DNA of 64,000 nt from Bacteroidota bacterium (GTDB lineage Bacteria; Bacteroidota; Bacteroidia; Cytophagales; Cyclobacteriaceae), in assembly GCA_018266435.1 (NCBI GenBank), contig JAFEAL010000002.1, positions 186,001-250,000 on the forward strand, given 5' to 3'. How positions within the stretch are numbered: position 1 is the first letter of the stretch; each line of letters opens with the position of its first letter. The position numbers and the translations under genes were made by a program. Positions 52,926-64,000 of the stretch are shown here, piece after piece. Under the pieces are notes generated by a model, which saw only the letters and a program-made list of their open reading frames with translations, did not search any database and was not told the DNA's origin.

Positions 52926-55900
52926 TTATTCCAAAGGAATATCTCCCGGCTGCTCACCTATTACTACTACTTTTGGCGGAAGCAGTTTATACATTACCGG
53001 AGTAACTAATCGCGAGAGTAAGGTAGAACTGATTAACCCACCGATAATTACTAAAGCCAGCGGGGAGTACAGCGGATTGCCTTCGATGGCCAATGGAATC
53101 AACCCGCCAATGGCGGTGAGCGAAGTGAGCACAATGGGCACGAAACGGATTTCTCCGGCATGTTCAATGGCCTCATCCAGCGGCACTCCCCGCTCACGAA
53201 GCTGGTGCGTAAAATCAACGAGCAAAATAGAATTTTTCACTTCTATTCCTGCTAAAGCAATTAACCCAACCACAGCAACAAACGAGAGTGGGTTGCCTGT
53301 GATAAACAGCATTGTTACCGCACCGATTACCCCCAGCGGAATGACTGACAACACAATCAGCGTACTTTTAAAATTGCCAAACTCCAGAACCAGCACTGCA
53401 ATAAATCCAAAGGCGGTAATCATGATGATTGTGCCAAGTCCTCCAAACGATTCTTGTTTGTTCTCCACCTCACCGGCTGCCGTATAGCGGTAGCCATTCG
53501 GAAAAGAGTACTTATCCAGTTTTTTCAGTACTTCGTTAGTTACGTCTTCGTACAAATATCCGTTTTTTACAAAAGCCGTTACTGTAGAGAAACGGTCTTT
53601 ATCATAGTGCCGTACTAAATTGGTTGAGGTTTCAAATTCTATTGTAGCTAATTGTTTCAGTGGAATGGCCTGACCTAACGCTGAGTTGATAAAAAGTTTA
53701 TCAAACACCTCAAAGGAGGCAAATTTTTCTTTAGGCAGCGTAACGTTAATGTTGATCGCATCTTCCCCTTCTGCAGGCGTAAACTTGCCCACATTTAAGC
53801 CGGCTACCCCCAACCGAACTGCTTTGTCAATGTCACTGACGGCTACACCCAGCAAACCGGCTTTTTCTTTGTTGATCTTTACCTGAAGATTGGTTTGCTG
53901 GTTGGCAATCGGGTTATTAACATATATCGTTCCCTCTGTTTTTTTTAAAATGTCTTCCACGTCCATTGAAATTTTTCTGAGGGTGTCCAGGTTTTCGCCA
54001 AACAAACGCAGGGCAATGGGTGCTTCCAGGGGCGGGCCTTGTTCAAAATCTTTCACTTCAATTTTAGCGTTGGCATAGTAAAAGAACTTCTCCCGAAGGT
54101 TATCAATCAACTTGGTTTTTTCTTCAGGAGTAAGGTTATTCAGTTGAACAAAAAGCTGGGCAAAGTTGGGTGATTCACTTCGGGCGATCACGTTGTAATA
54201 AATGCGTGGATTGCCTTTGCCTACGTTAGTGGTGAAGTAGGTGATGTCTTTTTCTTTTTTTAATTCACTTTCCACATAGCGTGCCACACGATCAGTTTCA
54301 CGTAAGCTGGTGCTAACCGGCATTTCAATGTTGATGAGAAACTGGGGTTTCTCCGATTTTGGAAATAAACTGAATCCCACAATGGGGAATAACGAGAGAC
54401 TGAAAACAAACAACACCAATGCAATGGCCAGCGTTGACCACGGATGGCGAAGTGACCAATGTAATACCCGTGTGTAAGTTCCACTGATTATTTTTTTTAA
54501 TGCCCGCAGAAAAATATTTCCCTCTTTGGAAGTATGTGTTTTCAATAAGCGGCTTGACAAAAAAGGCACAATGGTGAGCGATACCACCAGCGAAGCCAGC
54601 ACCGTGGTAATTACAGCCATTGGCAAACTACGGATAAAATCTCCGGCCTGCTCAGGAAGAAAAGCCAAAGGCAAAAATGCAAGGATCAATGTAGTGGTGC
54701 AACCAAGCACCGCCAAGCCAATTTGCTGGGTCGCTTCAATGGCCGCTTCTTTTTTTGATTTACCCGCGCGCAAGTAACGCTCAATATTTTCGATGACTAC
54801 GATGGAGTCATCTACAAGAATACCCAACGCTACAATTAAGCCGACAATACTTAATTGATTAATGGAATAGCCCAACGTATCGAGCATAAACAAACCTGTG
54901 AAAATAGAAAGGGGAATAGAGATCATCACAACCAGAGCCGCCCGGTTGCCTAACGGCAGCAGAGTGACCGACACCAGCAAAATGGCAATCACAAAATCTT
55001 TGGCAAACCGCGATAATCTTTTTTGCACACTTTTAGCCTGCTCAAAATTTTTAATCATTTTAATATTGGTCGGCAACTCTTTTTCGAATTGTGAAAGAAC
55101 TGGAGAGACGGCTTCATCCACGGCAAATATGTTTTGCTGATCTTTTTGAGCGGCTGTGAGCAACACGCTTCTATAACCATTAAGACGCGTGAGGTATGTT
55201 TCGTCTTGGTATCCGTTTTCTACTTCAGCAATGTCTTTGAGGTAAACTATTTTTCCGTTGCCCGAATAAACGATCGTGTTTTTGATTTCGTTAATGTTTT
55301 TGTATTCCCCACTTGTTTTGACATTGAATCTGCGTGTGCCCATTTCAATGTTTCCACCGGGTATGTTTACATTCTCACTTTGCAAGGCACCGATGATGTA
55401 GGGTAGCGCAATGTGTTGCTGTGCCAGCTTCTCAAGGTTCACTGACACGCGCACGTTTTGTTCGGGGTATCCGTGGGTTTCAATTTTTTTCAGGCTTTTA
55501 ACTTTTTCCAGCCGGTTCTCCAGCAGCTTTACCTGCTTTTCCAGTTCGTAGTACGGTGCCGTTTCAGACACCAGTGCAAGCTGAAGAATATTTACATCGG
55601 TAGAAGAAAATTTGATGATGCGTATGTCAAAAATATCCTGGGGCAATTCGCTGCGAAGCGAATTCACTTCACGAATGATTTCCTGATGTTTTTCTTCAGG
55701 GTTCATTTCATGTTTGTAGTCCACGCGAATGGAGGCCAGTCCATCGTACACGTCAGAAGTAATTCGTTTGATGTTCTCCAGTCCGTTGATTCTTTTTTCC
55801 ATCGGGTCAACCACCAGTTTTTCCATATCAATCGGGCTGGTACCCGGATAGACTACCACAATGGCAAATGAAGGAGCGGTGGTTTCAGGGTCTTCGCCAC

Positions 55901-56000
55901 GGGGCATATTGAGTAAGGAGTTCAACCCCAGGGCAACCATCAGCACAAACAGGATGAGCATGAACTGCCAATTCTTGACCGAGAACGCTGCGATTTTCAT
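52926..56000 (-). CDS. RND efflux pump, inner-membrane subunit (system 2)
   Basis: A 1024-aa HAE1/MMPL-like RND transporter. The N-terminus NWQFMLILFVLMVALGLNSL starts helix 1. TM4 carries GILVDDSIVVIENIERYL with the Asp pair for proton relay, and ALAGIEVKNSILLVDF lies at TM10. Two large periplasmic loops and 12 helices are inferred. It is the last of four genes: tetR, tolC, adaptor, pump. It shares little with system 1 beyond the family. Confidence 0.93.
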   Translation of the reverse strand: MKIAAFSVKNWQFMLILFVLMVALGLNSLLNMPRGEDPETTAPSFAIVVVYPGTSPIDMEKLVVDPMEKRINGLENIKRITSDVYDGLASIRVDYKHEMNPEEKHQEIIREVNSLRSELPQDIFDIRIIKFSSTDVNILQLALVSETAPYYELEKQVKLLENRLEKVKSLKKIETHGYPEQNVRVSVNLEKLAQQHIALPYIIGALQSENVNIPGGNIEMGTRRFNVKTSGEYKNINEIKNTIVYSGNGKIVYLKDIAEVENGYQDETYLTRLNGYRSVLLTAAQKDQQNIFAVDEAVSPVLSQFEKELPTNIKMIKNFEQAKSVQKRLSRFAKDFVIAILLVSVTLLPLGNRAALVVMISIPLSIFTGLFMLDTLGYSINQLSIVGLIVALGILVDDSIVVIENIERYLRAGKSKKEAAIEATQQIGLAVLGCTTTLILAFLPLAFLPEQAGDFIRSLPMAVITTVLASLVVSLTIVPFLSSRLLKTHTSKEGNIFLRALKKIISGTYTRVLHWSLRHPWSTLAIALVLFVFSLSLFPIVGFSLFPKSEKPQFLINIEMPVSTSLRETDRVARYVESELKKEKDITYFTTNVGKGNPRIYYNVIARSESPNFAQLFVQLNNLTPEEKTKLIDNLREKFFYYANAKIEVKDFEQGPPLEAPIALRLFGENLDTLRKISMDVEDILKKTEGTIYVNNPIANQQTNLQVKINKEKAGLLGVAVSDIDKAVRLGVAGLNVGKFTPAEGEDAININVTLPKEKFASFEVFDKLFINSALGQAIPLKQLATIEFETSTNLVRHYDKDRFSTVTAFVKNGYLYEDVTNEVLKKLDKYSFPNGYRYTAAGEVENKQESFGGLGTIIMITAFGFIAVLVLEFGNFKSTLIVLSVIPLGVIGAVTMLFITGNPLSFVAVVGLIALAGIEVKNSILLVDFTHQLRERGVPLDEAIEHAGEIRFVPIVLTSLTAIGGLIPLAIEGNPLYSPLALVIIGGLISSTLLSRLVTPVMYKLLPPKVVVIGEQPGDIPLE

Positions 56001-56011
56001 GGGTTAGTTTT

Positions 56012-57073
56012 TTAGTGTTGGTTGATTTTTACTGAACTGTTTTCAGTGAGAAAACCGGAACCTCCCGCAACTACTTCGTGAATGGAGTCTAACCCTTGTG
56101 AAATATAAGCCAGTTTGTTTTCCAGGTGTGCAATTACAATGGGAACTTTTCGCACGGATGTTTGATCATCGTTTACTACAAATACAAATGCATGTTGACC
56201 CTGGCCTTCTACAACGGCTTCAACCGGAATCGTCATTAGTTTTTTCTTGGCTGACGGCATAATCTCCACTTTAGCAAATAAACCGGAAGCCAGTTTTTTG
56301 TTTCCAGGAATTATTTTCACTTCGGCCTGGTAGAGACCGGTTACCGGGTCTGCTCCCTCGTTAATAACATTCAACTCTCCTTCAATGGGCTCGTTGGGGT
56401 AAGCATCTGTGGTGATGGTGGCGCGGTCTTCTTTTTTTACACGCACCCAGTCCACATCAGGCAAACCGATTTTTACGATCCATTCATTTTGTGCCGCGGA
56501 GTTGAGTATTAACACGGGGCTTCCGGCCATAACCAATTCACCTGCATTCAAAAATTTTCGTATAATTTTCCCCGACTGGTTGGCATGGATGGTTGAAAAT
56601 TGCTGATTGAACACCGCTATGCGATAGCTATCGTTAGCTACCTGGTATGCGGTTTGTAAATTCTGGATTTGTTCTTGCGTAGCGGCAGAGTCTTTCAGCA
56701 AGCGCTTGCCCCGATCAAGGTCGCGCTGAGCTTTGATGAGATTGTTTTTTGCTTGCGATACTTGCGCGTTTACTTCTGTTAAATCAAGTGACGCAAGAAG
56801 TTGTCCTTTGCTGACGGATTCGCCTTCTTTTACAAAAATTCTGGAGATGATACCGCTCACTTTGAAAGAGAGTTTTGATTCTGTCTCGGTACTGATCAAC
56901 CCCGAACTGATTACCGGCAAACTATATTCCACATACTTGACGGGTGCCACTTGCACGGCAATGGCCGATTCATCAAGTACAGAGTGGCCGGTTTGTTTTT
57001 CTTTTTTGCCACACGCGTTTAATAGAATTTCTATTGTGAAAAGTCCGATGAAAACAGCTAAATTTTTTTTCAT
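56012..57073 (-). CDS. RND periplasmic adaptor, lipoprotein (system 2)
   Basis: A 353-aa membrane-fusion protein. Its lipoprotein signal ends ILLNAC. Lipoyl half-motifs (SGIISRIFVKEGESVSKGQLL), a coiled-coil hairpin (about 75-115, VNAQVSQAKNNLIKAQRDLDRG) and beta-barrel domains (AEVKIIPGNKKLASGLFAKVEI) follow. ATG 57073 is chosen over 57136 because it starts the signal peptide; the stop of tolC lies at 57084. It is 11 bp upstream of the pump gene. Confidence 0.92.
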   Translation of the reverse strand: MKKNLAVFIGLFTIEILLNACGKKEKQTGHSVLDESAIAVQVAPVKYVEYSLPVISSGLISTETESKLSFKVSGIISRIFVKEGESVSKGQLLASLDLTEVNAQVSQAKNNLIKAQRDLDRGKRLLKDSAATQEQIQNLQTAYQVANDSYRIAVFNQQFSTIHANQSGKIIRKFLNAGELVMAGSPVLILNSAAQNEWIVKIGLPDVDWVRVKKEDRATITTDAYPNEPIEGELNVINEGADPVTGLYQAEVKIIPGNKKLASGLFAKVEIMPSAKKKLMTIPVEAVVEGQGQHAFVFVVNDDQTSVRKVPIVIAHLENKLAYISQGLDSIHEVVAGGSGFLTENSSVKINQH

Positions 57074-57083
57074 GGATGGGGGA

Positions 57084-58451
57084 TTATAAGTTACTGATGG
57101 TTTTTTGTAAGGCCGCAGCTTTGCGCAGCAGTTCATATCGGTTAATGGAGTGGGTTAACCGCGCAGTAGTGTATTTGTTTTCGGCATCTAAAAATTCGAT
57201 TAGCAGGGCAGCACCTTCGTTGTATTTGGATTGGATGATTTGAAATGATTTTTCTGCGCTTCGCATTCCGCTTTGCGAAGCCTGGTAGGCTAGCCTGGCC
57301 GATTTTAATTCATAGTGCGATTGGATTACCTGAAGTTCAATCTGCTTTTTTGTTTGCTCCATTTTATTTTCCATCACCTGGTAATCGATACGGGCTTGCT
57401 GCACGCGTGTTCGTTTTTCTCCGCCTTTAAAAAGGTCCCACGTCAACCCAAACTGTACGAGCCAATATTGCTGATCACTGCCAAAAGTGTAGTAATACCC
57501 CTGGTAGCCCACATCGCCTACGACATTAATTTTAGGAAGCAGCGCATTGCCTTTATTCAAGTAAATTATTTGTTCGCTGGCACGCATTCCATTTTGAAGT
57601 TGTGCCAATTCCTGGCGTTGGCGTAAAGCAGTTTGTGTTATAGATGTCAAGTCTTGTTGTTCGAGTGAGGGTTCTGAAAGAGTAGAGTCTTTAATAATCG
57701 TAGAGTTCAATTCACGGTTGAGTAGAAAATTGAAATAAGACTGAGTTACTTCTACATTTTTTTCATTCTCAGCAAGTTGTTGCTCGGTTTTGTTCAATTC
57801 GTATTCTGTACTAAGCACTACATCTTTAGTAGCTTTTGAATTGGCTACCCATGACTGGTTAACCTTGAGCAGTTGAAGGAGAATTTCGTGTGTATTTTTT
57901 AAAACCTGAACGGCATCCTGGCTTTGCAAAAATTGAAAATAGGCCGAAGTAATTTCGTATTTAAGTTGGTTTTCGTAGGCTTTCTTTTGTGCTTGCTGCA
58001 CCGTAATCAATTCTTTTTGTGCTTTGTAGTTGAAATATATTTCCGGGTTAAACAGGGGTTGAATTACACGCACTTTAGTGTCGTGAAAATTGGTGGCCAA
58101 AAAATTGGTTGATTGATTGGCAATGAGCGGATACTGAGGAGCACCATTATGCAAAGCTGCATTGATGGCATTGAGGTTTTGATAAACCGGGTTGACCAAG
58201 TCCCCTACCGGTACTAAGATTTTACGGCCACCATCGGCAAACTGGTAAGAGGCATTGATGCCCGCATACGGAAGAAACAATGCCCGGGCCTGGGCTAAGT
58301 TCTCTACGCTTCGCTCATAGTTGAGTTGTTCTTGCTGTAATTGCAGATTACTTTTCAGTGCCAGTTGAATGTAACTCTCCAGCACCGACTGAGTTTTAGC
58401 CCGCACACTTGCGAAAAAAAAGAGAAGAAGACAAAGTGCTTTTATTTTCAT
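57084..58451 (-). CDS. TolC-family outer-membrane channel (system 2)
   Basis: A 455-aa outer-membrane efflux protein. The signal peptide ends near FFASVRAKTQ. Two OEP repeats carry long amphipathic helices (LQQEQLNYERSVENLAQARA, YHELKSARLAYQAS region) and the motif ALLIEFLDAENKYTTARLT near the C-terminus. It is the first structural gene after tetR and has an AACAGTGTT operator candidate just upstream of its ATG. Confidence 0.9.
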   Translation of the reverse strand: MKIKALCLLLFFFASVRAKTQSVLESYIQLALKSNLQLQQEQLNYERSVENLAQARALFLPYAGINASYQFADGGRKILVPVGDLVNPVYQNLNAINAALHNGAPQYPLIANQSTNFLATNFHDTKVRVIQPLFNPEIYFNYKAQKELITVQQAQKKAYENQLKYEITSAYFQFLQSQDAVQVLKNTHEILLQLLKVNQSWVANSKATKDVVLSTEYELNKTEQQLAENEKNVEVTQSYFNFLLNRELNSTIIKDSTLSEPSLEQQDLTSITQTALRQRQELAQLQNGMRASEQIIYLNKGNALLPKINVVGDVGYQGYYYTFGSDQQYWLVQFGLTWDLFKGGEKRTRVQQARIDYQVMENKMEQTKKQIELQVIQSHYELKSARLAYQASQSGMRSAEKSFQIIQSKYNEGAALLIEFLDAENKYTTARLTHSINRYELLRKAAALQKTISNL

Positions 58452-58464
58452 CGTTAAATAAATT

Positions 58465-58473
58465 AACAGTGTT
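58465..58473. promoter_or_regulatory. Operator candidate between tetR and tolC
   Basis: AACAGTGTT is a perfect AACA-N-TGTT palindrome, 14 bases upstream of the tolC ATG. The same core occurs twice upstream of tetR, so it is a plausible TetR binding site. Confidence 0.5.
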
Positions 58474-58493
58474 TATTTTAGTGACAAAAAATT

Positions 58494-59132
58494 TTATTTT
58501 TTTAGTTTCTCTATGGCCAGGGTGAATGTCTTTAGGGTTTCATCCATAATCTGGTCTAGTTTTTTATTACTCTCCCGCTCTTCTTTTACGCGCCCCAGGT
58601 GGCCACTGAGGCGTAATGCACACAGGCCGTGGATAAAACTCCAGATTGTCATAGAAAATTGATGGGTATCCAGGTTTTTAAAATATCCTAGTTGCTGGCA
58701 TTGAGCTACGGTTTGAACCAGAGCATCAAATGCCCGGTCGCCTTCATCCCAATCTTGGTTTTGACAACTGGCCAAGTGCTCCATCGGCTCGGAGCGTATG
58801 AACAACAACTTGTACATCTCTGAATTTTTGATGGCAAACTTGATGTACGCTCTGCCCATTTCGCACAGGCGGTCAAAGGGATTATTAATTTTAAAAAGAG
58901 GCTGAAACAGTTTGTTCAACAAACTAAAGCCTTGACGATGCAAGGCATGAATGATTTCGTTTTTGTCTTTAAAATAGAGGTAGATTGTAGCCGGACTATA
59001 CTCAATGGCTTCGGCTACATTGCGTATGCTCACGTCATCAAAGCCTTTATCCACAAATAAACGATAAGCTGATTTTAAAATCGTGCCGCGCATTTCCTGA
59101 CGCTCGCGTTCTTTCCTTTCTTTCAGTCCCAT
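58494..59132 (-). CDS. TetR-family regulator of RND system 2
   Basis: A 212-aa one-component regulator. The N-terminal helix-turn-helix (about 14-58) shows KGFDDVSIRNVAEAIEYSPATIY and LYFKDKNEIIHALHRQG. The C-terminal TetR_C-type ligand-binding helices vary. It is first in the operon and probably represses it and itself, with efflux substrates as likely inducers. Three operator candidates with core AACA-N-TGTT surround the gene. Confidence 0.9.
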   Translation of the reverse strand: MGLKERKERERQEMRGTILKSAYRLFVDKGFDDVSIRNVAEAIEYSPATIYLYFKDKNEIIHALHRQGFSLLNKLFQPLFKINNPFDRLCEMGRAYIKFAIKNSEMYKLLFIRSEPMEHLASCQNQDWDEGDRAFDALVQTVAQCQQLGYFKNLDTHQFSMTIWSFIHGLCALRLSGHLGRVKEERESNKKLDQIMDETLKTFTLAIEKLKK

Positions 59133-59154
59133 GGTGCAAATAACGATAAAAAAA

Positions 59155-59167
59155 TGAACAGTGTTCA
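59155..59167. promoter_or_regulatory. Operator candidate 1 upstream of tetR
   Basis: TGAACA-G-TGTTCA is a palindrome of 6+1+6 bases, 23 bases upstream of the tetR ATG. Its centre is 18 bases from that of the neighbouring candidate. Confidence 0.5.
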
Positions 59168-59174
59168 GTATTTT

Positions 59175-59183
59175 AACATTGTT
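59175..59183. promoter_or_regulatory. Operator candidate 2 upstream of tetR
   Basis: AACATTGTT is a perfect AACA-N-TGTT palindrome with the same core as 59155-59167 and 58465-58473. Confidence 0.4.
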
Positions 59184-59274
59184 TATTAATAAAAAATATG
59201 CAACCCATTGAAAATCAGTGAAGAAACATACCCGTGAACATTAAGTTAAACCATCCGTTCTTTATCTAATGTTT

Positions 59275-59291
59275 CTTAAGAATGTCTTAAG
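59275..59291 (+). promoter_or_regulatory. Direct-repeat box CTTAAG-N5-CTTAAG
   Basis: CTTAAG at 59275-59280 and again at 59286-59291, an exact 11-base period, 30 bases upstream of the ATG of the secreted protein gene. The form equals the head-to-tail binding sites of OmpR/PhoB-family regulators (for example the PmrA box YTTAAK-N5-YTTAAK). A near-copy lies upstream of the OmpR-type regulator gene at 61361. Confidence 0.6.
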
Positions 59292-59321
59292 AATCTTCCG
59301 GCAAATTTACCGAGCTAAAAA

Positions 59322-61157
59322 ATGAGGGGATTCATTGTTTCAGTATGTTTACTGGTAAGCCTGACCGAGGGGTTTGGCCAGCAGTTAATTCTCCATACTC
59401 CATACCGGGTTGAAGCCTCACTATTTCAGCCAGTTTCTGTAAGGATTGAAGTCAACGGTATTAAAAAATACACAGTTACTCTTCAGGGGCAGCCATCGGG
59501 TTCTACATTTACCGATAGCCATTTTGTATGGACTCCCCAGCCTTCTGACAAACGATATTATTTAGTCACGTTTAGTTTGCTCGACTCGCTCGGCAACAGA
59601 AAAAATGAAATTAGCCTTGAGTTATTTGTGCGCCCACGCAAGCAATCTCCCTCCATAGAATTTGACCGACAGCTGAGCGATACAATACCCGTAGAAGAAA
59701 GCAAACCTTTTTATTTATCGGCCCGGTTGATAAACGGCTCGCGTGCAAACCAGCCTATAACCCCCTATTTTATTTTTAACGAAAACACTGGCCTTCGTTC
59801 GTTTGACAGTTGCCGCATTGAACAAATGGGCGACCAGTTGTTGTTTCGGTGGGTTCCTTCAAATGCAGAAGCCGAGAGAAAATATGCGCGGCTTAGAATT
59901 ACGTTACTTGGTTCTGACAGTTCAGTAGCCAGCCGTGTACTTACATTCAAAATAAAAAATATAGATTCTCCGCCCTCATTCCGATATCCGATTCCCGACA
60001 CAGTAATATTGGAGCGGAGCAAAGAAACGGTGCTGGATTTTACTGCAGACGATGACGAACAAAAAAAACTGAGCTACGACTATCATCCTAAGCGCAGCCT
60101 TTACCGCATGAGCGGCAGCAAAATAATTTTTTCGGCTGCAGGCCTGGATGATTCGCCCGGCACGGTTGCCCCTATTCCACTGACCGTTACGGTAAGTGAC
60201 GGCACCCACCCGATTACAAAAAAAATCTGGATAATCCTGCAAAAGAAAAACCGCTCAATAGTATTGGGCGATTTTACCCGGAAAGATTTTGAAGAAGGCG
60301 ACTCGCTCATTACTTACCTCAACGTATCAGGAGATGACCTCGATAAATATGATTTTAACCTGAATGACCTGGCGCTGCCTCCCGGCACCGAAAGCCTGGC
60401 AAAAAAATTGGTGCTGCAGAAAAATAGTTCTTTCATCAAAGTAAAATCAACTGGTGTATTGCCTTATACCTTAGTGGACAAGGATTATATTTTTAACCTT
60501 GCCTTCACCGCAACAGACAAAAACGATACACGCAAACATTATTATAAAGTAGTTGAACTTTCGGTTAAAGACCGACCCGACCCAACTCATATCGGTAAGC
60601 AAAAAGACTCGTTATTATTTGTGGTTGATACTTTTCTAAAAACCGAAACAATTTATAAAAGCATGCTGGATAAAATGCAGGGACAAATAAACAGGCCGTG
60701 GTGGAAAAAGGCCGCAGTAATAACCGGAGCCCTTTCGGGTGTGATTGGGCTCGTGCAAAGTCAGGAACAAAACAAATCAATCAGTGCAATTGCTGCGGTA
60801 ATCTCGCTGGCCTCTATTACTGTAACCAACCTGCCCAGCCTGACCGAAAAGACCCTTTCTGAGCTCACCGACAAAATTGCCAACTCTAAAGGCCGGATTG
60901 ACCAGCTTCAGGAAAGTGAATCGGCATTTCGTGCTTCTTTATTAACAACCATCGATCAAACCACTTTTTACAGGCTGAAGTCAGGCCTCAGCGAAAAATT
61001 AACAAAAGCACAACTACAAAGAAGCGAAGACATCTGCTCGCTATGGAGCAATAATGCCGTGAAACGAAGAATTATTCAACTGCTGAAGTCATCTTCGCCA
61101 CACACCAAAAACGGAATTGACATGAAAAAACTGTTTTTCTGTGCTGACCAAAAATAA
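59322..61157 (+). CDS. Secreted Ig/cadherin-like protein with C-terminal membrane hairpin
   Basis: A 611-aa protein of unknown function. A signal peptide (1-20, ending TEGFGQ) precedes about four beta-rich repeats (25-410). These look like Ig/cadherin-like modules: TFTDSHFVWTPQPSD, LLFRWVPSNAEAERKYARLRI and IPLTVTVSDGTHPITKKIWI. Then come two hydrophobic segments (463-479 and 487-504) and a helical tail (505-535). There is no T9SS sorting domain. It is therefore probably an envelope-attached protein. It shares a direct-repeat box with the two-component system downstream and likely belongs to that regulon. Confidence 0.65.
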   Translation: MRGFIVSVCLLVSLTEGFGQQLILHTPYRVEASLFQPVSVRIEVNGIKKYTVTLQGQPSGSTFTDSHFVWTPQPSDKRYYLVTFSLLDSLGNRKNEISLELFVRPRKQSPSIEFDRQLSDTIPVEESKPFYLSARLINGSRANQPITPYFIFNENTGLRSFDSCRIEQMGDQLLFRWVPSNAEAERKYARLRITLLGSDSSVASRVLTFKIKNIDSPPSFRYPIPDTVILERSKETVLDFTADDDEQKKLSYDYHPKRSLYRMSGSKIIFSAAGLDDSPGTVAPIPLTVTVSDGTHPITKKIWIILQKKNRSIVLGDFTRKDFEEGDSLITYLNVSGDDLDKYDFNLNDLALPPGTESLAKKLVLQKNSSFIKVKSTGVLPYTLVDKDYIFNLAFTATDKNDTRKHYYKVVELSVKDRPDPTHIGKQKDSLLFVVDTFLKTETIYKSMLDKMQGQINRPWWKKAAVITGALSGVIGLVQSQEQNKSISAIAAVISLASITVTNLPSLTEKTLSELTDKIANSKGRIDQLQESESAFRASLLTTIDQTTFYRLKSGLSEKLTKAQLQRSEDICSLWSNNAVKRRIIQLLKSSSPHTKNGIDMKKLFFCADQK

Positions 61158-61176
61158 TTTTTATTTGGCGTTGGTT

Positions 61177-61193
61177 CTTAAGAATCACTGAAG
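61177..61193 (+). promoter_or_regulatory. Direct-repeat box CTTAAG-N5-CTGAAG
   Basis: CTTAAG at 61177-61182, five bases, then CTGAAG at 61188-61193: an 11-base period and one mismatch to the box at 59275. It lies 168 bases upstream of the regulator gene, suggesting autoregulation. Confidence 0.55.
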
Positions 61194-61319
61194 AATTGCC
61201 CGGTATCTTTCGGTCGTTGTTAGGGAGAACCAATGCATATCAGGTAAGGCCTTTATCGCGCACAACTGATAAATGAAAATATGTATGTGGGTAATTTGTT
61301 TGTTAGGTTTAGGTAACTT

Positions 61320-61350
61320 GGTCAGCCGTTTTTACGGCTGGCCATTTTTT
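61320..61350 (+). terminator. Hairpin-T-run in the leader of the two-component operon
   Basis: GGTCAGCCG (61320-61328) pairs with CGGCTGGCC (61335-61343), one G-U pair, loop of six bases, followed by A and six T. It ends 11 bases before the ATG of the regulator gene. It could terminate the transcript of the 59322 gene or act as an attenuator for the regulator. Confidence 0.75.
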
Positions 61351-61360
61351 CTAAAGAGAA

Positions 61361-62038
61361 ATGAAAATTCTGATCATCGAAGACGAACATGAGTTACAAT
61401 CGGCTATTACCGGTTACCTAAAATCTGAAGGCTACATCTGTGAACAAGCCATTTCATTCAAAGAAGCTTCTGAAAAAATTGATATCTACGTTTATGACTG
61501 TGTACTGGTTGACATTGGGCTGCCCGATGGCAGCGGCCTGCAACTGGTAGAGATGCTGAAAAAAAAATTAAAAAATTCGGGAGTCATCATCATCACAGCA
61601 AAAAACTCACTCGAAGACAAAATCAGCGGGCTTGATATCGGAGCCGATGATTACTTAACCAAACCCTTCAATCTTTCTGAGCTTAACGCCCGCATCCGTT
61701 CTGTGTTGCGTAGAAGAAAATTTGAAGGCCAGAAAGAAATTGAGTTCAACGAGATTCGTGTCAACCCGGAAATCCTTCAGGCGCACGTGTTGGGAAAGCC
61801 GGTTTCATTAACTAAAAAAGAATTTGATTTGCTTCTTTTTTTTCTCTCAAATCAAAAGAAAGTGCTCACTAAAGAATCCATTGCCGAGCACCTTTGGGGT
61901 GATTACATTGACTCGGCCGATAATTTCGATTTTATTTATGTGCACATCAGTAATTTACGAAAAAAACTGGTGGAGCACGGTGCCCGCGATTATCTTCACA
62001 CCGTGTATGGGGTGGGGTACAAATTTGCCGACACATGA
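61361..62038 (+). CDS. OmpR-family response regulator
   Basis: A 225-aa receiver-winged-helix regulator. The receiver (1-115) has Glu7/Asp8 in LIIEDEHE, phosphoacceptor Asp51 (VLVDIGLPDG) and the conserved Lys in DYLTKPFN. The Trans_reg_C winged helix (about 128-222) shows SLTKKEFDLLLFFLSNQ, VLTKESIAEHLWGDY and VHISNLRKKL. It overlaps the kinase gene by four bases (ATGA). It probably binds the CTTAAG-N5 direct repeats upstream of itself and of the gene at 59322. Confidence 0.95.
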   Translation: MKILIIEDEHELQSAITGYLKSEGYICEQAISFKEASEKIDIYVYDCVLVDIGLPDGSGLQLVEMLKKKLKNSGVIIITAKNSLEDKISGLDIGADDYLTKPFNLSELNARIRSVLRRRKFEGQKEIEFNEIRVNPEILQAHVLGKPVSLTKKEFDLLLFFLSNQKKVLTKESIAEHLWGDYIDSADNFDFIYVHISNLRKKLVEHGARDYLHTVYGVGYKFADT

Positions 62039-63303
62039 AGTTGCTCAATAAAACAACTCTTTATTTTATCAGCGTTTCATTGGTTATTTTTTGTTTAGGA
62101 GGCATTCTCTTCTACACATTTTTTGATCTGATCATTGACCGTGACATTGCCCATAAACTTAACGAACGGAAAATCTACAGCCTGAAACAACTAGAAAAAA
62201 CAGACAGCTTGTTGCTGTATCAAAAATACTCGGCCAACATACTTCACCTCAGGCTCACTTCTCAACCTGAAACTACTCCCGAAACTTTTTCAGACACCAC
62301 CATTTATGATGATGTGCTGGAAGAACCCATCATGTACCGGCAACTTTCGTTTGTTAAAAAGATTGATGGTAAAAATTATTTTATTCAAGTAAGAAGGGCA
62401 GCGATAGAACATAAATCTTTGCTCGAGGGTGTCATTCTGCTGGAGGGCTTGCTCTTCCTGGCTTTTGTAACCGTGCTTACCTTGGTGAATAACAAAGTCT
62501 CCAAGCGTATCTGGCAACCGTTTTATCTCATCCTTGATAAAATTGGGCGGTATCAGGTAGACCTGGCTCAAAGTATGGTCTTGCCCAAAAGCGCGATTGA
62601 TGAGTTTAACGAACTGGCCAAGACAATTGAAACCATGACCGACAAGATCAACCGCGAGTTTAATATTCTCAAAGAGTTTACAGAAAACGCCTCTCATGAA
62701 ATTCAAACTCCTTTAGCAATTGTAAAAAACAAACTCGAAATTCTGCTTCAATCTCCTGATCTTTCCAGTGAACAAATGAACCTGATCAACTCTGCTTCTC
62801 TTGCGGCCAACCGATTATCAAAACTCAACGAAGCACTAATCATCCTTTCAAAGATTGAAAACCGGCAGTTTCATGAAACCACCAATTTGTGCGTCAATGA
62901 TGAAATAGACCGCCTTTACGCCAATTTGGATGAATTGATCAAAATGAAAGGGCTGCAAATAGAGAAAAACTATGCGCAACCGATGGTTATAAAAATGAAC
63001 ACTCATTTGCTGGGTGTCTTGCTTGAAAATATTATCACTAACTCAATTAAGCACAATATTACCGGAGGTAATATCCATATTGCCATTACAGACCAGACAT
63101 TAACAGTAAGTAACACGGGTGAGCCCCTGAAAATCGCTTCTGAAAAATTATTTCAGCGGTTTGTTAAATCGAATGTTAAATCTCAATCATTGGGCCTGGG
63201 GCTTTCGATTATAAAAGCCATTTGCAACACGTATTCATTTTATGTTACCTATGTAGAAGAAGGCGGGTGGCACACCATTTCCATACAAACTGATCAGGTA
63301 TAA
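62035..63303 (+). CDS. Sensor histidine kinase partner
   Basis: A 422-aa HisKA/HATPase kinase. Two membrane helices (about 9-30 and 133-151) flank a periplasmic domain of about 100 residues. The dimerisation box ENASHEIQTPLAIVKNKLEIL carries phosphoacceptor His221. The N, G1 and G2 boxes are LLENIITNSIKHN, GEPLKIASEKLF and GLGLSIIKAI. It phosphorylates the upstream regulator; the ligand of its periplasmic domain is unknown. It resembles the RprXY type of Bacteroidota two-component system. Confidence 0.94.
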   Translation: MKLLNKTTLYFISVSLVIFCLGGILFYTFFDLIIDRDIAHKLNERKIYSLKQLEKTDSLLLYQKYSANILHLRLTSQPETTPETFSDTTIYDDVLEEPIMYRQLSFVKKIDGKNYFIQVRRAAIEHKSLLEGVILLEGLLFLAFVTVLTLVNNKVSKRIWQPFYLILDKIGRYQVDLAQSMVLPKSAIDEFNELAKTIETMTDKINREFNILKEFTENASHEIQTPLAIVKNKLEILLQSPDLSSEQMNLINSASLAANRLSKLNEALIILSKIENRQFHETTNLCVNDEIDRLYANLDELIKMKGLQIEKNYAQPMVIKMNTHLLGVLLENIITNSIKHNITGGNIHIAITDQTLTVSNTGEPLKIASEKLFQRFVKSNVKSQSLGLGLSIIKAICNTYSFYVTYVEEGGWHTISIQTDQV

Positions 63304-63465
63304 CCGTTGAAAAATAATCATCATATCAAATCTTAAGCCGCCCGTATGAACCGGGGTGGTTAAAATTATGCTCCGGAGTCTTTCGTTAATAAGCCTGGTA
63401 GTACAACCGGTATAGTACTTGTTTGCTGGCTTCTGAAATAGAATAAACAGTATGCCCTTATACGC

Positions 63466-63493
63466 AAAAAACCTCAGAGGTTATCTGAGGTTT
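63466..63493 (-). terminator. Terminator downstream of tRNA-Val
   Basis: A perfect 10-bp stem (AAACCTCAGA / TCTGAGGTTT, 63469-63493, loop of five bases). On the minus strand it is followed by a run of six T and lies just after the tRNA 3' end. Confidence 0.75.
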
Positions 63494-63496
63494 GAG

Positions 63497-63571
63497 TGGG
63501 AGCTGAGGGGTTCGAACCCCCGACCCTCTGCTTGTAAGGCAGATGCTCTGAACCAGCTGAGCTAAGCTCCC
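63497..63571 (-). tRNA. tRNA-Val (anticodon UAC)
   Basis: A 75-nt cloverleaf on the minus strand. The acceptor stem GGGAGCT pairs with AGCTCCC and the discriminator base is A. The D-arm is TAGCTCAGCTGGTTCAGAGCA. The anticodon loop CTTACAA holds TAC between TCTGC and GCAGA. The T-arm carries GTTCGAA. No 3' CCA is encoded, so it must be added post-transcriptionally. It decodes GUN valine codons, chiefly GUA and GUG. Confidence 0.96.
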
Positions 63572-63585
63572 TTTTTTAAGGACTG

Positions 63586-63618
63586 CAAAGGTAATGCAGA
63601 ATTTCAATTGACCAAAAA
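63586..63618 (-). promoter_or_regulatory. tRNA-Val promoter (-33 / -7)
   Basis: On the minus strand TTTTTG (63618-63613), 19 bases, then TACCTTTG (63593-63586): full match to the Bacteroidota consensus, 15 bases before the tRNA 5' end. Confidence 0.7.
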
Positions 63619-63632
63619 GGAATTAAAAAATC

Positions 63633-64000
63633 CTATCCGCTGATTTTTCTAAACAAGTCTGAGGCTTCAAGCACTAATAGTTTAGAGCCTGAACCAAACT
63701 GAATATTAGCCACGGTGTCTTTTCCCATTTTTTTTACAAAATTCACTTTGCCTTTGCCGTGGTGCAGGTGAAATAGTTCACTGCCCGTTTTAAGTTTGAG
63801 CAACTGCTCTTGGGTATAGGGTTCTGCCACATAATCGGGTAACGGTGAAATGATGGGCAGGTGTGTTTCTTGAGGTATTTCTTGAATTGCCTCGTTGTGT
63901 TGTGGCTCGGGCGGTGTTTCTGTTGTTACCACTAGCTTAGGAAGTCCGATTGCCAATCGGTTGAGCACAGCATTGCGCGCTTGTTTATTTTCAACTGCTT
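63633..64000 (-). CDS. C-terminal fragment of an unknown protein (5' end outside window)
   Basis: The frame is open to the window edge; the GTG at 63968 is probably internal because upstream codons continue without stop (ENKQARNAV just before it). A Pro/Glu-rich linker leads to a small beta-barrel-like end (SELFHLHHGKGKVNFVKKMG, then ANIQFGSGSKLLVLEASDL). That end resembles the Tudor-like tail found after UvrD/PcrA helicases, but this is a weak match by eye. The function cannot be assigned. Confidence 0.5.
   Translation of the reverse strand, partial: AVENKQARNAVLNRLAIGLPKLVVTTETPPEPQHNEAIQEIPQETHLPIISPLPDYVAEPYTQEQLLKLKTGSELFHLHHGKGKVNFVKKMGKDTVANIQFGSGSKLLVLEASDLFRKISG

Follow-up and report, generated by a model that had tools for sequence, protein, structure and literature searches.

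Two short and closely similar direct repeats in the genome of a bacterium of the Cyclobacteriaceae (Bacteroidota) raise the question of whether a sensor kinase and its response regulator control a neighbouring envelope protein, their own operon, or both. The repeats lie on the plus strand of the window, the 64,000-nucleotide stretch of contig JAFEAL010000002.1 analyzed here. Box1, CTTAAGAAT-GT-CTTAAGAAT (59275-59294), the proposed regulator site, precedes a gene for an Ig-like protein (59322-61157), and box2, CTTAAGAAT-CA-CTGAAGAAT (61177-61196), lies upstream of a response regulator gene (61361-62038). Both repeats read as originally predicted, CTTAAGAATGTCTTAAG at 59275-59291 and CTTAAGAATCACTGAAG at 61177-61193; of the distances to the next gene given for these shorter boxes, 30 bases is correct, whereas 168 was measured as 167. 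The likeness between the boxes runs three bases beyond those limits, giving a 20-bp site, CTTAAGAAT-NN-CTKAAGAAT, and leaving 27 bases between box1 and the ATG at 59322 and 164 between box2 and the one at 61361.

The 12-base core is by itself not striking. With up to two mismatches it occurs three times in the window against 2.3 expected, and with up to one mismatch the genome holds five forward matches against four in a reversed control. The PmrA consensus YTTAAK-N5-YTTAAK falls at one place in the window, a count reached by 7 of 100 shuffles, and this single place is counted on both strands because the core is palindromic. The 20-bp form is unusual. When the genome (24 contigs, 3.48 Mb) was searched with CTTAAGAATNNCTTAAGAAT (CTTAAGAAT-NN-CTTAAGAAT), box1 and box2 were the only matches with up to two mismatches, against none in the reversed control; five further matches appeared at three mismatches, one of them box1 read backwards, against two in the control. 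With that backward reading excluded, six of the nine weaker genomic sites listed lie inside open reading frames of at least 150 codons; given these positions and the near-control core counts, a large regulon in this genome is unsupported. Among the matches listed in a search of the literature on Bacteroidota regulators, the titles and opening lines of abstracts contained no description of a TTAAGAAT/TTCAGAAT box, which is weak evidence of absence.

The original prediction of an OmpR-type two-component system is borne out by the domain content of the adjoining genes, both on the plus strand. The regulator combines a receiver domain (Response_reg, PF00072, 93.4 bits) with a winged-helix Trans_reg_C domain (PF00486, 78.5 bits), as in the OmpR/PhoB type, and its gene is overlapped by four bases by that of a sensor histidine kinase (62035-63303), which exceeds the cut-off of the NCBIfam PorY family (NF052314, 423.1 bits, cut-off 350). 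The top two PDB matches of the regulator are PmrA/BasR, with DrrD almost equal (listed as "DNA binding response regulator D" and named DrrD in the portion of PMC4660055 available). The claim that the first box equals the PmrA consensus holds as a likeness of half-site and geometry. Box1 fits YTTAAK-N5-YTTAAK, and box2 and the other 14 sites compared below fail in at least one half (CTGAAG, CTAAAG, CTTCAG). It does not extend to family membership, as the NCBIfam scores reach only 170.7 of 330 bits for PmrA and 67.6 of 314 for PmrB. A role in PorXY signalling or type IX secretion is likewise unsupported, the adjacent partner of the kinase being an OmpR-type regulator and not PorX. By these sequence measures, the pair does not qualify as PmrA/PmrB, and the partner of the kinase sets it apart from PorX/PorY.

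To assess the association between boxes and pair, we compared related genomes. The Ig-like gene was found in 4 of the 58 genomes searched, its own included (G000, G001, G002 and G033), and a 12-row profile run over 62 genomes of the genus again recovered only these four. All four keep both boxes, with 0+1, 2+2, 2+3 and 1+2 mismatches, and the comparison of orthologous loci that had been proposed as a check places them at the same positions in the three relatives. Further out in the genus, close relatives of the kinase occur in G807 (60%), G819 (56%), G023 (54%) and G015 (51%). A degenerate pattern, CTNMAGANTNNCTNMAGANT, was fixed on six genomes, namely the window clade together with G015 and G023; the pairs of G807 and G819 were found only afterwards and thus served as a blind test, in which all five exact matches lay at the kinase–regulator locus. 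In the survey of 62 genus genomes, with the pair called by a kinase match at E<=1e-75, the exact pattern was present in all eight pair-bearing genomes, where 15 of 15 matches fell within 8 kb of the pair, and in 7 of the 54 others (eight matches). The reversed pattern gave no match in the eight and eight matches in the 54. The chance of all eight pair genomes falling among the 15 positive genomes is 1.9e-6, a figure to be read with the fact that only G807 and G819 are independent, because the pattern was drawn from the other six. Within the window clade itself, three of the eight boxes miss the pattern, by 1, 2 and 1 letters. As with tandem sites of the OmpR/PhoB type, an 11-bp direct repeat thus lies at the regulator's own locus and is conserved in relatives. 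The regulatory link, previously only inferred, is well supported by this comparison, in which the predicted sites track the pair across the genus; the two boxes are very probably docking sites of the neighbouring regulator.

Three of the eight matches outside the pair-bearing genomes (G020, G028 and G030) lie less than 5 kb from a more distantly related pair with this type of kinase. The box stands 19 bases (G020) or 20 bases (G028) upstream of a sulfatase-family gene leading into regulator and kinase genes, with one gene intervening between the two parts in G028; in G030 it is on the strand opposite the regulator gene. A fourth match, in G810 (C754), adjoins another regulator–kinase pair and an outer-membrane efflux gene, and the other four were not linked to such a pair. 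Exact boxes near these distant pairs suggest that the site type predates the window clade. In most distant pairs, no site was found close to the regulator gene: when 18 more distant kinase loci (L051-L068) were searched with a stricter form of the pattern, on the coding strand and as far as 600 bases ahead of the regulator, a site with at most two mismatches was found in only three, and among order-level loci one of five had a site within 800 bases upstream. The G020 and G028 loci (L133:3721-7639 and L134:3685-8597) each comprise an exact box, a membrane sulfatase-family gene, an OmpR-type regulator and a kinase, and this order of enzyme, regulator and kinase recalls pmrCAB. The enzyme reaches no NCBIfam cut-off, the best model being LtaS at 69.7 and 67.8 of 970 bits. 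The G020 paralogue, which is partnered with an OmpR-type regulator, is likewise assigned to the PorY family by the NCBIfam model.

Judged by the genes behind the boxes, the predicted outputs vary by species and include the Ig-like protein, a coiled-coil protein and a TolC-RND efflux operon. In G015, three copies of CTAAAGAATTGCTAAAGAAT lie in repeated noncoding DNA upstream of the regulator gene, the last of them 20 bases from the ATG; a fourth box of slightly different sequence stands 7.6 kb away from the kinase gene and 41 bases upstream of a row of TolC, RND, membrane-fusion and outer-membrane-like genes (TolC checked with Pfam, the others by our reading). G819 carries one box 109 bases before the regulator gene and a second exact box that overlaps the end of the kinase open reading frame, 234 bases upstream of a TolC-RND-membrane-fusion row (Pfam). 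The single box of G023 lies 125 bases upstream of the regulator gene. In G807, exact boxes precede a coiled-coil gene, a gene for a protein that we read as secreted and that has a TPR match below the Pfam cut-off, and two very small membrane open reading frames.

The boxes also share a fixed position relative to a putative promoter element. In Flavobacterium psychrophilum, TAnnTTTG spans -12 to -5, according to the part of PMC9723704 available. Candidate elements of this kind, CAAATTTA (59302-59309) and TATCTTTC (61204-61211), both on the plus strand, begin seven bases past box1 and box2, respectively. Across 16 sites from eight genomes (two of the three G015 repeat copies and the G807 near-miss sites being excluded), the match to TAnnTTTG peaks at offset 7, with a mean of 4.25 of 6 letters against at most 2.44 at other offsets from 0 to 25. 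At this offset 13 of the 16 sites score at least 4 and seven at least 5; none of 2000 shuffles reached the observed mean, the highest shuffled maximum being 2.94. Ten less related sites give a mean of 4.2, and the boxes near the distant pairs score 4 (G020), 3 (G028) and 5 (G030) at the same spacing. The three repeat copies of G015 (L044:5380-5822) are 230 and 117 bases apart, and a good -7 element accompanies only the gene-proximal one. If the flavobacterial positions apply, the repeat would therefore sit at -39 to -20, and transcription of the Ig-like gene is predicted to start at 59314, eight bases upstream of the ATG; for box2 the corresponding predicted start is about 61216. For comparison, PmrA binds tandem half-sites head to tail (PMC4660055, PMC3973317), and at its pbgP promoter the -35 element lies at half-site 1 (PMC4660055), as described in the excerpts of these papers. 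By this analogy, a box followed by seven bases and a -7-like element would have the geometry of PmrA/PhoB-type activation, and activation is likelier than repression.

For box2, the comparison uncovers a lost gene. In G002 and G033, an open reading frame for a 269-aa protein lies between box2 and the regulator gene, starting 67 and 65 bases downstream of the box, and is followed by a hairpin and T run (folded for the window, G001 and G033). By our reading, a hydrophobic segment at the N terminus of the protein is followed by a long middle part with a heptad-like pattern; the protein has no Pfam match. The order of box, coiled-coil gene, hairpin and regulator gene recurs in G807, whose coiled-coil protein shares 30% identity with the 269-aa one across 173 aligned columns; in that assembly the gene is interrupted by a frame change (L118). 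In the window and in G001, the coiled-coil gene is lost save for a noncoding 3' remnant (about 61229-61318, plus strand), and the terminator-like hairpin is kept (61319-61350, plus strand; 11 pairs, -20.5 kcal/mol, with a T run). This hairpin is the longest of nine terminator-like sites in 58000-64000, where 6.2 are expected. The gene order in G002, G033 and G807 indicates that box2 descends from the promoter box of this putative envelope gene.

These findings alter the proposed autoregulated circuit. In G015, G023 and G819, the box is found immediately in front of the regulator gene, in the position of an own-operon promoter. In the window, autoregulation is possible but would be indirect, since the remnant and the hairpin intervene, and would need read-through or a second promoter. 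An alternative, which we rate at somewhat below an even chance, is that box2 is a relic of the coiled-coil gene and that the pair is transcribed here from a box-independent promoter in or near 61286-61321, with no autoregulation. The loss of the gene with retention of the hairpin is in line with this reading, and 61286-61321, though noncoding, is identical at 36 of 36 positions between G000 and G001, compared with 37 of 57 just before it, in a stretch that was picked after the alignment was viewed. It adjoins the stable hairpin and holds, by our reading, near-matches to TAnnTTTG, TAGGTTTA and TAACTTGG, so that a second promoter or a leader for the regulator genes is possible there. However, in G000 and G001 box2 and its -7-like element have stayed intact despite the loss of the gene, which suggests continued use; relatives with the box directly before the regulator gene also speak against a mere relic, and the interval from hairpin to ATG, where only 30 of 43 positions are identical between G000 and G001, does not share the conservation.

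The gene behind box1 (plus strand) encodes a 611-aa protein with a signal peptide, by our reading, and about four Ig/cadherin-like domains in its predicted structure. Neither Pfam nor NCBIfam offers a family match at E<=0.001. Among 5.8 billion proteins, with the best 7999 candidates scored, at least 13 matches were obtained, the protein itself included, and homologues at 42-50% are among the matches listed. In the AlphaFold2 model (mean pLDDT 65.7), a string of beta-sandwich domains is followed by a poorly modelled helical part: ten-residue blocks from 20 to 416 are mostly above 70, and nearly all residues of 418-567 fall below 50. The C-terminal part contains two hydrophobic segments (our reading). 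The best Foldseek matches in the PDB are titin Ig domains and cadherin ectodomain repeats, with whole-length TM-scores of only about 0.2. The original prediction had named an uncharacterised envelope protein as the output of the circuit; the modelled Ig/cadherin-like tandem agrees with this, whereas the idea of a single output does not survive the TolC-RND operons behind the box in G015 and G819. More distant Ig-like homologues (614-618 aa) in a sister genus (L106-L109; G389, G343, G401 and G355) follow a transporter-like gene and have other neighbours, and in four of four the 300 bases upstream hold no 11-bp repeat (7 of 8 letters).

A minus-strand row (52926-59132), running away from the Ig-like gene, encodes a TetR-type regulator, TolC, a membrane-fusion protein and an RND permease (Pfam), in an order that G001 and G002 share. 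Close to the TetR gene, words resembling AACAGTGTT are, by our reading, possible TetR operators. Box1 appears poorly placed to serve these divergent genes, as the minus-strand letters at the same spacing match TAnnTTTG at only two of six positions. It is nevertheless conceivable, if unlikely, that the boxes serve another regulator, either another OmpR-type protein or the TetR-type repressor (58494-59132), with the adjoining pair a mere neighbour. A first kinase search found 30 candidates in this genome, which makes other regulators likely, and box1 is situated between the divergently oriented TetR and Ig-like genes and has a palindromic core, so that its geometry alone is no proof of a direct-repeat binder. 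Most boxes in relatives are, however, non-palindromic (CTAAAG, CTTCAG) yet keep the 11-bp period, and across the 62 genomes the exact boxes track the pair and stay at its locus where other neighbours differ, including G015, G023, G807 and G819, which have no Ig-like match at E<=1e-8. That the repeats are functionless products of chance is very improbable: the unenriched core and near-expected window counts would allow it, and the location of most weaker genomic sites inside open reading frames, the unique 20-bp form, the recovery of sites in two genomes tested blind and the constant distance to the -7-like element argue against it.

We favour a model, to which we assign a probability of about 80%, in which both boxes bind the regulator at 61361-62038, activated by phosphorylation. 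The kinase (62035-63303) would phosphorylate the regulator, a dimer of which would occupy both half-sites in head-to-tail orientation, from about -39 to -20 and across the -33 region, and recruit RNA polymerase to the -7 element seven bases downstream. At box1, this would switch on the Ig-like envelope protein. Box2 would originally have driven the coiled-coil envelope gene, whose terminator would have separated it from the regulator and kinase genes downstream; since the gene is lost here, transcription from box2 would now run through the remnant and hairpin towards the pair, and such read-through would provide at most attenuated autoregulation. A broader interpretation, which we offer tentatively and hold to be more doubtful than not, is that of a cassette in which a promoter module (11-bp repeat, seven bases and -7 element) and the sensor–regulator pair stay fixed and the neighbouring outputs are swapped, among them an RND efflux pump, a coiled-coil protein, a cadherin-like protein and a secreted protein with a weak TPR match. 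In one branch, the regulator genes would have come to lie behind an output gene's terminator, and, with that gene lost, its promoter and terminator would have become a leader for attenuated autoregulation.

The general design of such a sensor–regulator switch is already familiar. CusRS, BaeSR and AdeRS are two-component systems that control efflux. The exact boxes before TolC-RND-membrane-fusion rows in G015 and G819 resemble this arrangement, whereas the window-clade box precedes the Ig-like gene and the RND row of the window is divergent, behind the TetR gene. With PmrA/PmrB (BasR/BasS) the pair shares an OmpR/PhoB-type regulator, head-to-tail hexamers and a site over the -35/-33 region; in the parts of the sources available, the PmrA half-sites are CTTAAT and CCTAAG in Klebsiella pneumoniae (PMC3973317) and YTTAAK repeats in Salmonella (PMC10927774), and the site lies over the -35 region (PMC4660055). 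It differs in its longer CTNMAGANT repeat, promoter type and target genes. Among the base-contacting residues of PmrA named in the excerpt of PMC4660055 (T187, N188, V192, H195, N196 and R210), V192 and N196 are kept, H195 is S and R210 is Y by our reading, which makes two of the four residues aligned without a gap changed, positions 187-188 adjoining an alignment gap. OmpR/PhoB-type regulators such as Mycobacterium tuberculosis PhoP, described in the accessible text of PMC4832192 as binding 7-bp repeats with a 4-bp spacer, share the 11-bp period, the direct repeat and the two domains, and differ in recognized sequence and regulon. The kinase's PorY-family score points to a likeness with PorX/PorY of type IX secretion; PorX, however, combines CheY-like and PglZ domains, and porX and porY occupy separate loci in Porphyromonas gingivalis (PMC10951265, in the part available), whereas the kinase here is partnered with an OmpR-type regulator in an overlapping gene.

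For this little-studied lineage of Bacteroidota, the analysis provides a sequence-defined regulon, with a regulator, its likely site to the base, a promoter geometry and, across eight species, candidate target genes. The analysis also bears on automatic annotation, in that it indicates that kinases labelled as PorY-family can partner OmpR-type regulators at loci with envelope and efflux genes. The locus illustrates clearly how, in nature, outputs can change while the regulator stays fixed, and it ties an unnamed family of Ig/cadherin-like envelope proteins to a probably inducible promoter, opening a route to its function.
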